Assembly: GCA_947258565.1 (NCBI GenBank) | Contig: CAMYJB010000008.1 | Coordinates: 1 to 64,000 of the forward strand | Source of the DNA: an uncultured Woeseiaceae bacterium | GTDB lineage: Bacteria > Pseudomonadota > Gammaproteobacteria > Steroidobacterales > Woeseiaceae | Length of the DNA stretch: 64,000 nucleotides | Reading direction: 5' to 3' | Shown here: piece after piece, positions 20,818 to 44,060 of the stretch | How the letters are laid out: the number at the start of each line of letters is the position of its first letter | Position numbering within the stretch: the first letter of the stretch is position 1 | Notes under the pieces: generated by a model | What the model was told of the DNA's origin: nothing | Databases searched by the model: none | The model's input: only the letters and a program-made list of their open reading frames with translations | Position numbers and translations under genes: made by a program

Positions 20818-23800
20818 CGTCCGCCGTCGCGGGATCGTAGCCGAGGACCGGCGACAGCCACTTCTCCGCCTCGGCGACGGTCATGCCTTTGCGGGCTGCG
20901 TAGGATTCGAGCTGCTCGCGATCGATCTTGCCAACGGAAAAATACCGCGCATCGGGATGCGAGAAGTAGAAACCGCTGACCGCGGCCGTCGGGTACATCG
21001 CATACGAATCGGTCAGCCGGAGCTCGATGTTCTTCTCCACATCCAGCAATGACCAGAGCTTCGCTTTCTCGGTGTGGTCCGGGCATGCCGGGTATCCCGG
21101 TGCCGGGCGTATGCCGCGGTAGCGCTCCGCGATGAGATCGTCATTGTCGAGGCGCTCGTCGGGCGCATACGCCCAGTGTTCGACGCGCACGCGTTCGTGG
21201 AGGTACTCGGCAAGTGCCTCCGCGAGACGATCGGCGAGTGCTTTCAGCAGGATCGCGCTGTAGTCGTCGTGCGCTTTTTCGAAGTGAGCGACTCGCTCGT
21301 CGATGCCTATGCCTGCCGTCACCGCGAATGCACCGATGTAATCGTCGAGACCCGACGCCCCCGGCGCAACGAAGTCGGCCAGGCAATTCTGCGCCTGACC
21401 TTCCGGCTTCGCACGCTGCTGGCGCAGGTGGCACAGGCGCTCGATTGCCTTCGTGCGTTCGTCGTCGGGGTAAACCAGCAAGTCGTCATGATCCGCGCTG
21501 TTTGCGGCGAACAGGCCGAGCACGGCGCGGGCCTGCAACCATTCCTCGCGCACGATCTTGTCGAGCATGGCGCGCGCGTCGTTGTGCAGCGCCGTCGCAG
21601 CCTCTCCGACGATCGCGTCGCTGAGTATCGCGGGATACTTGCCGTGGAATTCCCAGGCGTTGAAAAACGGCATCCAGTCGATGTAGTCGGTCAGCAGCGC
21701 GAGGTCGATGCGGTCGTAAACCCGCACGCCCGTAAATGCCGGTCGCGGCGGCGTGTACGCAGTCCAGTCGATCCGGTGCCGGCGCCTGCGCGCTTCATCC
21801 AGCGACAGCTGCGGCGCGAGGCGGGACTTGCCGGCATGCTGATCGCGGCGGCGGGCATTATCGCGCCGCGTCTTCTCAACAAGCGCGTCGCGCGTACCCG
21901 GCTCGACGAGCGCCTGGGCCACGCCGACGGAACGCGATGCATCCTTTACGTAGATGACGGGCCCCTCGTACTGCGGCTCGATCTTCACGGCCGTGTGCGC
22001 CGGTGACGTCGTCGCGCCGCCGATCAGCAGCGGCAGGTCGAATTGCTGGCGCTGCATTTCCGACGCGACGTGGACCATCTCGTCCAGCGACGGCGTGATG
22101 AGCCCGGACAGCCCGATCATCTGCGCCTGCTCCCGCCGCGCCGCGTCGAGGATCTTTTCACAGCTGACCATGACACCGAGGTCCACGACCTCGAAGTTAT
22201 TGCATTGCAGGACCACACCCACGATGTTCTTGCCGATGTCGTGAACGTCGCCTTTGACGGTCGCGAGCACGATCTTGCCGTTCGAACTGACCTTGCCGCC
22301 CTGCTCGGCCTCGATGAATGGTATGAGGTGGCCCACCGCCTTCTTCATCACGCGCGCCGACTTCACAACCTGCGGCAGGAACATCTTGCCCGCGCCGAAC
22401 AGGTCGCCGACCACGTTCATGCCGGCCATCAACGGCCCCTCGATGACGGCCAGCGGCCGGTCCGCCGCGAGCCGCGCTTCCTCGGTGTCCTCGACGACGA
22501 ATTCATCGATGCCGTTAACCAGCGCGTGCTCGAGCCGCTTCTCGACGGCAGCTTCGCGCCAGGAGAGGTCTTTCACTTTCGCGGCGCTGCCGGATGCCTG
22601 GTCCTTGTATCTTTCTGCGACCTCGAGCAGCCGCTCGGTGGCATCCTCGCGTCGGTTCAGCACGGCGTCCTCCACCGCGTCGCGCAAGTCTCCCGGCAGG
22701 TCTTCGTATATTGCGAGCTGGCCGGCATTGACTATCCCCAAGTCCATGCCCGCGCGTATCGCGTGGTACAGGAACACGGAGTGAATCGCTTCGCGCACCA
22801 CGTTGTTGCCGCGGAACGAAAACGACACGTTACTGACGCCACCGGACACCATCGCGTGCGGCAGCTCGTCCTTGATCTTGTGCGTCGCTTCGATGAACGC
22901 GACGCCGTAAGCCGAGTGCTCCTCGATGCCGGTCGCGATGGCGAAGATATTGGGATCGAAGATGATGTCCGCCGGGTCGAAGCCGAGCTTCTGCGTCAGG
23001 ATGTCGTAGGAGCGCTTGCAGATAGCAATCTTGCGCTCGACCGTGTCCGCCTGGCCCTGCTCGTCGAACGCCATGACGATCACGGCGGCGCCGTAATCGC
23101 GGACGAGCTTCGCCTGTTCGATAAAGCTGTCTTCGCCTTCCTTGAGGCTGATGGAATTGACCACCGCCTTGCCCTGCACGCAGCGCAGCCCTGCCTCGAT
23201 GACCGACCACTTCGACGAGTCGATCATGATCGGCAGCCGGGAAACGTCCGGCTCGGACGCGATCAGGTTGAGGAACGTCACCATGGCCTGCTCCGAATCG
23301 AGCATGCCCTCGTCCATGTTCACATCGATGATCTGCGCGCCGTTCTCGACCTGCTGCCGCGCGACCTGCACGGCCTCGGCGTAATCGTCGGCCTCGATCA
23401 GCCTGCGGAAGATCGCCGAACCCGTGACGTTGCAGCGTTCACCGACATTAACGAACAGGTCGTCGGGACCGATGTTGAGGGGCTCGAGCCCCGAGAGGCG
23501 GCAGCGTACTGGGATGTCGGGTATCGCGCGCGGCGGCTTGTCGTTCACGGCTTCACGCAGTGCGGCAATGTGCGCCGGCGTGGTGCCGCAGCAGCCGCCA
23601 ACCAGGTTGACGAGACCGCTGCCGGCAAACTCGCCGATTACTGCCGCCATGGCCTCGGGCGTTTCGTCGTACTCGCCGAACTCGTTCGGCAGGCCGGCAT
23701 TGGGATGCGCGCTGACGCGTGTATCGGCAACGCGCGAGAGTTCATCGACGTACGGGCGCAGGTCTTTCGCGCCCAGTGCGCAATTGAGCCCGATCATGAA

Positions 23801-41116: not shown

Positions 41117-41380
41117 GTGAGCGACGAGTCGGTCATGACATTCCCGTGCTCGTTCCCCATTAAGCTGATGGGACGCGAGAGCAGCGTATTTCGTCACACG
41201 GTCAGGGAACTCGTCGAGAAACACACCGGTCCGCTCGATGACGACGCCATCGAATCGTCGTTGAGCCGCAATGGCCGTTTCGTATCGGTAACCATAACGG
41301 TCATCGCCGAGAGCCGGGAGCAGCTGGACAACATCTACCGCGACGCGACGGCGCATGACGATGTCATAATGGCCCTGTGA
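41117..41380 (+). CDS. ybeD: DUF493/YbeD family protein
   Basis: An 87-residue ACT-like regulatory protein with [24 protein letters not shown] and [28 protein letters not shown]. In E. coli YbeD lies between dacA and lipB exactly as here, and its biochemical role remains unclear. Translation from GTG at 41117 is likely; an ATG seven codons in is the alternative. Its stop overlaps the lipB GTG by four bases. Confidence 0.92.
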
Positions 41381-42048
41381 GCACGCCCGCAAGCAACCTG
41401 GCGCCATCGATAACCGTCCGCAACCTCGGGCTGCAGGACTACGAGCCCCTGTGGCGGGCGATGCAGCGCTTCACCGATACGCGCACCGCCGGCACGGCGG
41501 ACGAGATCTGGTTCACCGAGCATCCGCCGGTATTCACGCTGGGTCTCAACGCCAGCCGGGACCACCTGCTGCAGACCGGCGATATCCCGGTCGTGCAGAT
41601 CGACCGTGGCGGGCAGGTCACCTACCACGGCCCCGGTATGCTGATGGTCTACCCTCTCATCGACCTCAAGCGGCTCGGTCTCGGTGTCCGCGACCTCGTA
41701 ACCGCCCTGGAGCAGAGTGTGGTCGACCTGGCGGCCGAATATGGCATTGACGCCCGCGCCAACCCTGAAGCCCCGGGCGTGTACGTTGCCGACACCAAGT
41801 TTGCCAGCGTGGGATTACGCATCCGCCGTGGCGCCAGCTATCACGGCATGGCGCTCAACGTCAAAGTCGACCTCGAACCTTTCCTGCGGATCAACCCGTG
41901 CGGTTACGCAGGTCTCGAAATGACCGATCTTGCCACGCTGGGCGGCGACAGCGACCTCGACGCCGTAAGTCGCAAATTGCTGCCGCACTTCCTCGAACAC
42001 CTGCACCTGAAGGATGCGAACGTGACCAGCGACCCTCCGGAGTCGTAG
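41377..42048 (+). CDS. lipB: Octanoyl-[acyl-carrier-protein]:protein octanoyltransferase LipB
   Basis: A 223-residue enzyme moving octanoyl groups from ACP to lipoyl domains, the first step of lipoate synthesis. Seen: [21 protein letters not shown], the Lys region [14 protein letters not shown] and the catalytic Cys in [14 protein letters not shown]. The start is GTG 41377. No lipA follows, unlike in E. coli; instead a 290-bp palindromic element separates it from the convergent murU. Confidence 0.95.
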
Positions 42049-42334
42049 GAGCGCTTCTCGAACCACGACCCCGCCTTTGCCTCAAGGCGGGCCGCTCCGA
42101 TACCTTTTCTCGTCATGGCTCGCCGCGCTGCGCGCGGCTGCGCTTTACTTCCTCGAAAAGGCAATCCTCGCGGCCCGCCCAGAGGGTACACCGGCGATCA
42201 TCGCTCTTACTACGCGGGCTGGTCCGGGGCGTTTGTCGACCGAAGTAAAGCGCAGCGCAGCGAGCCATGAGGGAGACAAATGCCCCGGCCGCCCGCTGGC
42301 TCATCAGCAGTCGTGGTTCGAGAACCTCTGCTAC
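42045..42334. repeat. 290-bp nested palindromic element between convergent genes
   Basis: The gap between lipB and murU is one long imperfect palindrome. Its outer arms (42045-42069 and 42310-42334) match at 22 of 25 positions, 15 of them in an unbroken run (TTCTCGAACCACGAC), and contain the TAG stops of both lipB and murU. Inner arms at 42114-42151 and 42242-42269 match over CATGGCTCGC and TGCGCTTTACTTC, with ten extra bases in the left copy. A further hairpin lies at 42070-42091. It has the form of a MITE-like or snap-back dispersed repeat, or a large bidirectional terminator; no protein is encoded. Confidence 0.75.
42070..42091 (+). terminator. Hairpin downstream of lipB
   Basis: A perfect 8-bp stem CCCGCCTT/AAGGCGGG with loop TGCCTC, 22 bases after the lipB stop. 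A TTTT run follows about 12 bases later (42103-42107), further away than in a canonical Rho-independent terminator. It lies inside the 290-bp palindrome. Confidence 0.5.
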
Positions 42335-42975
42335 GGGCGGTTGAGATCGGCCAGGCGCTCCGGCGTGCCCACGTCTTCCCACAACCCTTCATAGAGGCTG
42401 CCGGCAAGTCGCCCTTCGCGGGCCGCCGTCTTGAGCATGGGCGCGAGCGGGAAGCGCCCCGGCTTGCAGCCCGCGAAAAACACCGGCCGGTAAACGGCAA
42501 CCCCCGAAAACGTATACGCCGCATTGCGATCTTCGCAAACACGCCCGTCCCGCAGGTCGAAATCGCCCTGCTCTTTGTGCGCGGGCCTCGGTACCAGGAC
42601 GAGATGGCCCACGTCCGATTCGGCGAGCCCGGCAGGAGGCAGGGGCATGTCCGTGTAGATATCTGCATTGACCACCAGGAAGGGGTCGCGGCCCAGCATC
42701 GGCAAGGCACGGTATATACCGCCACCCGTTTCGAGAATGTTGTCGCCTTCCTGGCTGTAGACCACGTTCACTCCGTATGCGTGGCCCGACCCTATCCTGT
42801 CGGCGATCCGTTCGCCCAGCCATCCGAGATTGATCACGACGGTCTCGATGCCTGCAGCTTTGAGTCGCTCCATGTGTCGTTCGAGCAGACTTTTACCCCG
42901 TACTTCGACAAGCGCCTTGGGCGTGGTTTCCGTAAGCGGCCGCAGGCGCTCGCCATGTCCCGCGGCAAGGATCAT
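42331..42975 (-). CDS. murU: N-acetylmuramate-1-phosphate uridylyltransferase MurU
   Basis: A 214-residue nucleotidyltransferase making UDP-MurNAc from MurNAc-1-phosphate. The N-terminus is MILAAGHGERLRPLTETTPKAL, the family's nucleotide-binding signature, with NADIYTDMPLP as the metal site and LWEDVGTPERLADLN at the end. It follows amgK by five bases, the pairing typical of the Pseudomonas-type cell-wall recycling route that bypasses de novo UDP-MurNAc synthesis and confers fosfomycin tolerance. Confidence 0.93.
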   Translation of the reverse strand: MILAAGHGERLRPLTETTPKALVEVRGKSLLERHMERLKAAGIETVVINLGWLGERIADRIGSGHAYGVNVVYSQEGDNILETGGGIYRALPMLGRDPFLVVNADIYTDMPLPPAGLAESDVGHLVLVPRPAHKEQGDFDLRDGRVCEDRNAAYTFSGVAVYRPVFFAGCKPGRFPLAPMLKTAAREGRLAGSLYEGLWEDVGTPERLADLNRP

Positions 42976-42980
42976 CGCTA

Positions 42981-44060
42981 TCACGCCCGCGAGTCCAGCT
43001 GTGGCAGGCACCGCTCATTGATGAGCCGCACGAGGAAGCCGAGCTCATCGTGGCGCGGCAGCAAATCCACGATATAGGAGAGTGTGCGCGGAATATCGAG
43101 CATGTAACCCGGCTTGCCGTCGCGGTGATTGAGCCGGGCAAAAATTCCGGCCGCTTTCAGGTGGCGCTGCACACCCATGAGTTCAAATGCACGAATGAAG
43201 TCCTGCTCGGTAATCGCCTCATGCATGGACTTGTCGAGCAGACCGTAGTAGTTGCTGACCCACTGCGCTGTGCGACCGGCCGGCCACCTTATGTAGCAGT
43301 CCTTGAGCAACGACACGAGATCGTAAGTGAGCGGGCCTTCAACAGCGTCCTGAAAATCCAGGATACCCGGGCTGTTTTCATTCGTGACCATCAGGTTTCT
43401 CGAATGATAATCCCGATGCACGAATACCTGCGGCTGATCCAGCGCGTTGCGAACGAGCAGGTCGCAGAGCGATTTCCAGGCCGATTCCTGTGCTGCATCG
43501 AATTCGATACCGAGGTGCTTACCGCACAGCCAGTCGTGGAACAGGGACAGCTCGAATCGCAACAGCGCCTCGTCGTAGGGCGGCAGCAGGGCCTGGTAGG
43601 CGGCGCCGCGGTTCTGCATGACGGCGAGCGCGCGCAGAGCATCGGCATACAGAACCTCGGCGCTCGAGACATCCGCCTCGAGACGGTCCAGGTACAACGT
43701 GGAGCCGAGGTCTGTCAATAACAGGTAACCCTGTTCCAGGTCTGCCTCGATCACGCGCGGTGCATTGAGCCCCATCGCTTCCAGATAGCCGGCAACCCGG
43801 ATGAACGGCAGGCAGTCTTCCTGTGGCGGCGGTGCGTCCATGACGATGAAGCTGTCATCGCCCTTTTGCAATCGAAAGTAACGCCTGAAGCTGGCGTCGC
43901 CCGAAGCGGGTGTAAGATCGCCACCAGCGACTGCGCCAACACCTTCGACCCAGTGTTTCAGCGCTGCAAGACGGGCATCCGCCCCGGCATTCGAATGCTT
44001 GATCGCTTGACTCCGTAACGCGTTGAAGCGCCTGACAATCTGTGCGAAGGTAACTAACAA
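42981..44060 (-). CDS. amgK: N-acetylmuramate/N-acetylglucosamine kinase AmgK
   Basis: An aminoglycoside-phosphotransferase-fold kinase of about 359 residues that makes MurNAc-1-phosphate for MurU. It has GDASFRRYFRLQKGDDSFIVMD in the N-lobe (two separated motifs), the catalytic VFVHRDYHSRNLMV loop and LDFQDAVEGPLTYDLVSLL for the metal. No in-frame ATG begins near the domain; TTG at 44060 is the best start I can offer and leaves a 31-bp gap to the divergent lptD. The frame is open further upstream, but that overlaps lptD. Confidence 0.88.
   Translation of the reverse strand: MLVTFAQIVRRFNALRSQAIKHSNAGADARLAALKHWVEGVGAVAGGDLTPASGDASFRRYFRLQKGDDSFIVMDAPPPQEDCLPFIRVAGYLEAMGLNAPRVIEADLEQGYLLLTDLGSTLYLDRLEADVSSAEVLYADALRALAVMQNRGAAYQALLPPYDEALLRFELSLFHDWLCGKHLGIEFDAAQESAWKSLCDLLVRNALDQPQVFVHRDYHSRNLMVTNENSPGILDFQDAVEGPLTYDLVSLLKDCYIRWPAGRTAQWVSNYYGLLDKSMHEAITEQDFIRAFELMGVQRHLKAAGIFARLNHRDGKPGYMLDIPRTLSYIVDLLPRHDELGFLVRLINERCLPQLDSRA

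Follow-up and report, generated by a model that had tools for sequence, protein, structure and literature searches.

A composite of REP-like arms and two inverted hairpin modules at the lipB–murU junction of a Woeseiaceae genome, read as a REPIN-like mobile DNA element

The described elements that lie closest to the one reported here are the REP sequences, palindromes of 20–40 bp whose CGTC branch has no dedicated transposase according to the part of the source available to us (PMC3733652). The enzymes of the TnpA-REP and IS200/IS605 systems recognise, in the accessible sections of another source, either a conserved motif together with a bulged imperfect palindrome or a perfect palindrome (PMC8266576). 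On the chemical side, GNA loops that have two or more G-C pairs form extraordinarily stable mini-hairpins in DNA, and the available portion of the work concerned treats these GNA and GNNA mini-hairpins as a chemical motif and not as a repeat family (PMC4686876). Within the collection of papers covered, our literature searches returned no description of the family of hairpin modules that is the subject of this work; its core strings retrieved apparently unrelated papers, and no account of repetitive palindromic elements of Woeseia was found. The enterobacterial RU elements and the members of a catalogue of bacterial stem-loop families are reportedly small intergenic repeats or stem-loop families, like the module; the module is set beside them by description and not by sequence comparison, and overlap is possible.

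The locus lies in a window of 64,000 nucleotides (positions 1 to 64,000 of contig CAMYJB010000008.1) from an uncultured Woeseiaceae bacterium, whose genome is referred to below as the source genome. At the convergent junction of lipB and murU, the stretch 42044–42335 is a composite in which REP-like arms carrying GTAG enclose two hairpin modules of about 90 nt in opposite orientation. Its features are listed here in window coordinates; gene names are those of the first-pass annotation, and the scores are from R1, a covariance model built from 33 module copies of the source genome (both modules of this element among them) that were not filtered on their stems.

41377–42048, plus strand: lipB (matched in 73 of 73 same-genus genomes)
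42044–42335, no strand: the whole composite element, an insertion at the lipB–murU junction (arm search, source-genome matches and same-genus junctions)
42044–42069, plus strand: left REP-like outer arm with GTAG, containing the lipB stop codon TAG (42046–42048)
42083–42181, minus strand: hairpin module 1, GA strand on minus (R1 match of 69.6 bits, E = 2.2e-13); core strands at 42113–42121 and 42142–42151, apex GCCGCGC-GCA-GCGCGGC
42182–42210, no strand: spacer separating module 1 from module 2
42211–42300, plus strand: hairpin module 2, GA strand on plus (R1 match of 95.8 bits, E = 5.8e-20); GAAGTAAAGC at 42242–42251, GAGCCATGA at 42262–42270, apex GC-GCA-GC
42310–42335, minus strand: right REP-like outer arm, containing the murU stop codon (42331–42333)
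42331–43011, minus strand: murU

The outer arms (26 nt, 88% complementary) resemble REP sequences (GTAGGAGCG...), and similar arms also surround the copies L002 and L003 (by eye). Between them lie inner arm pairs that are 72% (42080–42108 with 42157–42185), 95% (42113–42133 with 42250–42270) and 100% (42137–42151 with 42242–42256) complementary. On each of its strands, the 292-nt element has a fold far better than those of its shuffles (z = -7.98 and -7.24; none of 200 shuffles was as good). The first-pass annotation had described a nested palindrome spanning both stop codons, and the re-measured arms and the fold confirm it; lipB ends at 42048 within the left arm and murU at 42331 within the right arm, as had been claimed. 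The nested-arm layout proposed there consists of real arms, whose nesting is due to the presence of two inverted hairpin modules inside the REP-like arms. A further occurrence of GTAGGAGCG, the REP start, or of its complement is located at position 23006 of the window, with no module core found nearby.

The comparison of this junction among members of the same genus was based on 30 loci fetched from the 73 genomes in which LipB was found, of which 26 were readable. The lipB and murU stop codons are separated by 282 bp in the source genome, they lie between -61 and +20 nt apart in 24 of the 26 readable junctions, and no module is present at the junction in the 25 other readable genomes. The sole other large insertion among the 26 junctions is in G240, where 894 bp separate the stops and a separate gene is located between murU and lipB (L222:580–1470). 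In G169, whose LipB is 89% identical, the two stops overlap by 14 nt, the position of the murU stop codon is unchanged relative to the source genome (by eye), and the motif CTCCTAC (GTAGGAG on the other strand) is present at the murU stop. Hence, GTAG may mark the insertion target, as suggested by this one case, and an insertion at a pre-existing GTAG/CTAC of the murU stop would explain why both genes have kept a stop codon. The lipB–murU case is an insertion into overlapping gene ends after which each gene still has its stop. At the junction of G137 there is a palindrome of 26 bp similar to the outer arms. No target-site duplication was demonstrated; what is seen is empty junctions in relatives and outer arms of 88% complementarity. 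It is nearly certain that the element is a dispersed repeat and that it inserted at the lipB–murU junction, and this insertion is recent; judged on the pair formed with G169 alone, a clean loss in G169 may be the alternative. The replacement of the 3' ends of the two genes, which had also been suggested, did not hold up, in that no large replacement is seen and only the last few residues of LipB differ from those of G169 (by eye).

The source genome (3.48 Mb in 53 contigs) contains many related sequences. A BLAST search with the element, which was the check proposed with the first-pass annotation, produced 81 matches at E ≤ 0.01 including the self-match, some copies being counted twice, once per strand, because the element matches itself in reverse. 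Among these are three further near-full composites (84–89% identity over 222–280 bp), giving four with that of the lipB–murU junction, and one match of 204 bp at 73% identity; the remainder are shorter. With R1, 58 module matches were obtained at E ≤ 0.01, of which 33 are matches by construction. The suggestion of a mobile element with terminal inverted repeats thus survives as a dispersed mobile repeat, but as a composite of repeats and not as a single transposon.

On its GA strand, the module consists in order of a variable stem, GAAGTAAAGC, a small variable apex hairpin, GAGCCATGA, and a variable stem. The two loop strands, GAAGTAAAGC and GAGCCATGA, are nearly invariant, the stems differ among copies yet still pair, and many copies carry, between the outer stem and GAAGTAAAGC, a tandem G.A mismatch together with a short step that covaries. 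For the 33 copies from the source genome, 22 of the 28 pairs have undergone change on both sides, and the cells changed on both sides number 121 compared to 40 in shuffles. A pattern scan of genome contigs identified at least 102 stretches holding at least 108 exact core matches; among the 108 matches listed, the stem-pairing score is 8 or higher (up to 28) in 91 and 6 or lower in 17. Of these 17, L082 is cut by the end of its locus and L080 lies in a module-bearing genome, and the other 15, from scattered taxa, are taken as chance. The set A2 comprises 89 of the 91 well-paired matches, the other two having too little flank. In A2, cells changed on both sides number 701 compared to 248 in shuffles, and the covariation is 0.618 for 88 distinct well-paired rows drawn from a wide range of genomes, compared to 0.192 for shuffled rows and at most 0.187 for slid partners; since A2 was selected for stem pairing, its pairing figures are raised and the figure from the source genome is the cleaner of the two.

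The more distant genomes G364, G709 and G721 have pairing letters (GAAATAAAGC with GAGCCATTC) where the core otherwise has G.A, A.G and G.U, and these core positions are hence supported as pairs. The apex is a GNA triloop in 116 of 171 distinct cores, 114 of which are closed by C-G, with C, A, T or G as N, and this C-GNA-G apex with at least two G-C pairs is like the stable DNA mini-hairpins described in the available part of PMC4686876. A comparison of orthologous modules for in-place compensation covered seven alignments, a small set that is mixed with exchange of the apex. The entire apex hairpin differs between the syntenic modules L107 and L224, and likewise between L235 and L224, as would happen if recombination took place at the conserved core. 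Template switching can make arms complementary without any selection on pairing. Because the conserved part of the module is a folded loop and its stems are free to vary, repeat finders that compare sequence see fragments of the family alone; a covariance model detects the family across distant lineages.

The modules frequently occur in pairs of fixed polarity. In the source genome all 16 neighbouring pairs are arranged minus-then-plus, with gaps of 16–118 bp, and these pairs account for 32 of the 58 matches, the other 26 having no neighbour within 400 bp. In other genomes, 9 of 10 neighbouring pairs show the same arrangement and one is plus-plus; this count covers the loci with two or more matches and three single ones (32 of 120 rows entered), and some of the pairs in close relatives are syntenic with those of the source genome (L154, L161) and thus represent partly the same loci. 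One candidate case, L064, in which two modules lie 2.5 kb apart around genes, was dropped, as the repeats within one gene there are not modules. With its polarity fixed in this way, the pair is likely to be the unit that moves, as is the case for REPINs. Of 108 modules classed as intergenic, 44 are found in convergent, 45 in tandem and 19 in divergent gaps, and convergent gaps, which make up 25.0 of the 107.4 kb of intergenic sequence in those loci, are hence favoured; the classes rest on longest-ORF gene calls, leave out 17 modules at locus edges and two without flanking genes, count some sequence twice where loci overlap, and include a few chance matches. For another 33 modules there was overlap with a called ORF; no fewer than four of these (L079, L089, L093, and L096) are chance core matches, and others may be as well. 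The syntenic gaps of relatives hold modules that differ in number and orientation, which points to high turnover and is compatible with stems derived either from an inverted duplication of the target or from entry into a palindrome that was there before. In G169, two loci carry partial composites that are possibly faults of MAG assembly.

Our preferred reading, to which we assign a probability of about 0.56, is that the element is a recent non-autonomous mobile DNA unit, REPIN-like in consisting of a divergent-polarity pair of hairpin modules, here enclosed by GTAG arms, and recognised in the form of folded single-stranded DNA. The module would act on one strand only, an enzyme would read its conserved internal loop (viz. 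the tandem G.A steps, the UAAAGC/GAGCCA core, and the GNA apex) and would tolerate any stem that is able to pair; the copies lie in intergenic gaps, among which convergent ones are over-represented. An enzyme of this kind, reading a single folded DNA strand, would by analogy be like those of the TnpA-REP and IS200/IS605 systems, from which, as they are presented in the available sections of PMC8266576, the module differs by an internal loop located far inside a long variable stem. Counting against this reading, the diversity of the stems within one genome is unlike that expected from recent copying of one master. Among 437 called proteins encoded beside modules, no mobile-looking family recurs, and the families that recur beside modules in at least three genomes look like housekeeping proteins (functions by eye). 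If the module is mobile DNA, it becomes testable which non-RAYT enzymes spread small palindromes in bacterial chromosomes.

An unlikely alternative is that the module belongs, in a wide sense, to the REP/REPIN (BIME) family and has the internal loop as a large loop variant; its mobiliser would then be a Y1 transposase of the genome, or there would be no dedicated one, as with the CGTC REPs. The module resembles REPINs and the GTAG and CGTC REPs in that these are dispersed intergenic palindromes with inverted pairs and a preference for convergent and tandem gaps, and at the present locus the outer arms carry GTAG; the layout of the 16 inverted pairs and four near-full composites is that of a REPIN, with inner units that are at most putative REPs. 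The module differs from REPs in having an invariant internal loop set between long stems that vary, a feature described for none of the REP families in the accessible part of PMC3733652, and in its size, module matches spanning 77–99 nt and the models of 77 and 89 positions matching end to end in most of the hits listed. It also appears to have no tag, as no GTAG or CGTC end or other end motif is shared in the alignments A1 and A2 within 24–30 nt of the core (by eye). The RAYT (Y1_Tnp) gene associated with the GTAG branch was detected in 13 of the 21 genomes that bear modules (one of them below the cut-off) and not in the other 8, and 5 of the 7 genomes that lack a module match also had it; the module-bearing genomes in which it was not found include some of fairly high completeness (97% in G096, 95% in G137, and 92% in G103 and G165; three others have no figure). 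Y1_Tnp was therefore rejected as the mobiliser, its presence not following that of the modules, and the mobilising enzyme is probably not a Y1 REP transposase; since the CGTC REPs also lack a dedicated transposase, the missing Y1_Tnp alone does not separate the module from all REPs. Failing the size test of REPs and not following Y1 transposases, the module is not filed here as a known REP or REPIN. The source genome has one Y1 gene (L031, C11:10176–10499), which in itself speaks for the REP/REPIN family; against it, the inverted ends that flank this gene differ from the REP arms and contain GTGCCAGGCGA and the complement of that sequence (by eye).

We consider it quite improbable that the module is a structured RNA (a small RNA or a 3' UTR element) that has spread in the manner of a repeat and owes its retention to an RNA function. 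Tandem G.A steps and conserved internal loops are common in protein-binding RNA, and the strong covariation and a one-strand preference for G.U across genomes are in accordance with this alternative. In a count of 106 core matches flanked by 24 nt on each side, taken without a stem filter among the matches listed, the GA strand has 228 G.T cells compared to 68 A.C cells. With a strand-neutral filter admitting Watson-Crick pairs only, the numbers are 186 and 36 in 88 copies; in these copies the better fold is that of the GA strand in 83 cases with DNA parameters and in 85 with RNA parameters. These unbiased figures replace a count based on A2 (G.T 190 and A.C 38; better folding in 81 and 85 of 88), for which the filter had accepted G.T among the pairs. 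The data across genomes thus point to one strand as the folding strand; in the source genome alone (33 copies), the numbers are 38 G.T compared to 17 A.C and depend on one column, without which they are 11 and 17.

This strand bias fits either RNA or single-stranded DNA, and stable folding and a G.U bias fit RNA equally. Single modules show no clear orientation relative to genes (18 with and 22 against tandem genes; 17 and 21 relative to the nearer of two convergent genes), and the orientation of modules along contigs was mixed with respect to a replication-strand bias (by eye). Moreover, as the pairs are inverted in a fixed way, one of the two copies would always be antisense to whatever transcript is made. 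The searched window region and eight loci gave no Rfam match above the gathering score, and three matches below it (to two microRNA families and CyaR) were treated as chance. The large bidirectional RNA structure offered in the first-pass annotation hence finds no support in the orientation of single modules or in Rfam. DNA is favoured by this lack of orientation bias and by the GNA apex that is stable in DNA, the latter being an argument for DNA and no proof, as GNA loops are possible in RNA too; folded single-stranded DNA is therefore more likely than RNA to be the recognised form. A bidirectional transcription terminator serving lipB and murU, which would account for very stable hairpins sited exactly at two stop codons, is highly improbable, in view of the 25 other readable junctions of the genus that have no module, the presence of modules in tandem and divergent gaps, and the lack of a T-run after the outer arms on either strand (by eye).

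The module motif was found in MAGs whose record titles, from which the taxon names used here are taken, read Woeseiaceae, Coxiellaceae, and Deltaproteobacteria. The genomes searched with a second model, R2, include several whose copies had gone into building it. Within the order of the source genome, R2 has matches at E ≤ 1e-4 in 67 of 296 genomes (viz. 50 of 63 same-genus genomes, 5 other-genus members of the family, and 12 elsewhere in the order). Within the class, 4 of 369 genomes have matches: the source genome, G006, G364 with at least five matches, and G323 with one weak match. The 365 class genomes without a match are the nearest to a negative control. In the phylum of G309, whose record title is Deltaproteobacteria and which NCBI places outside Pseudomonadota, 5 of 290 genomes match, one of them weakly, including the already known G309 and G310. 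In these searches no more than 16 candidates per genome (12 for the class) were scored, so that the copy numbers are lower bounds and some weak matches may have escaped. Among the 36 genomes in the order of G308, which is titled Coxiellaceae in its record, four have 28–36 matches each, all four being known from the pattern scan, and the other 32 have none. The modules are therefore abundant where they are present and are not detected in most relatives. Phage and plasmid collections gave no blastn match to the 292 bp, and in IMG/VR the long core pattern gave no stretch and a shorter one gave a single stretch without a stem by eye. We tentatively suggest, rating it somewhat short of an even chance, that the modules constitute an undescribed class of non-autonomous mobile DNA hairpins common to Gammaproteobacteria and lineages filed as Deltaproteobacteria, whose identity would lie in the fold of the single-stranded internal loop and not in the sequence of the stem, which would move as divergent pairs, and which would depend on a non-Y1 enzyme.

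Several variants of the module were also observed. In the source genome, a module match of 142 nt (L024, C4:128707–128848) is interrupted by about 50 nt of other sequence near its apex. A second type of hairpin in the source genome, with a related stem and a different core, GAGGCCTAAAGCGAG-NGN-AGCGAGCAGCCC, is present in three copies in the loci examined (L054, L224, and L225), one of which has TAATGC in place of TAAAGC. In L225 (6423–6568), L090 (near 5400), and L236, the module apex carries a longer insert with several small inverted repeats, and sequence similar to this insert is present in the syntenic gaps of two relatives (by eye).
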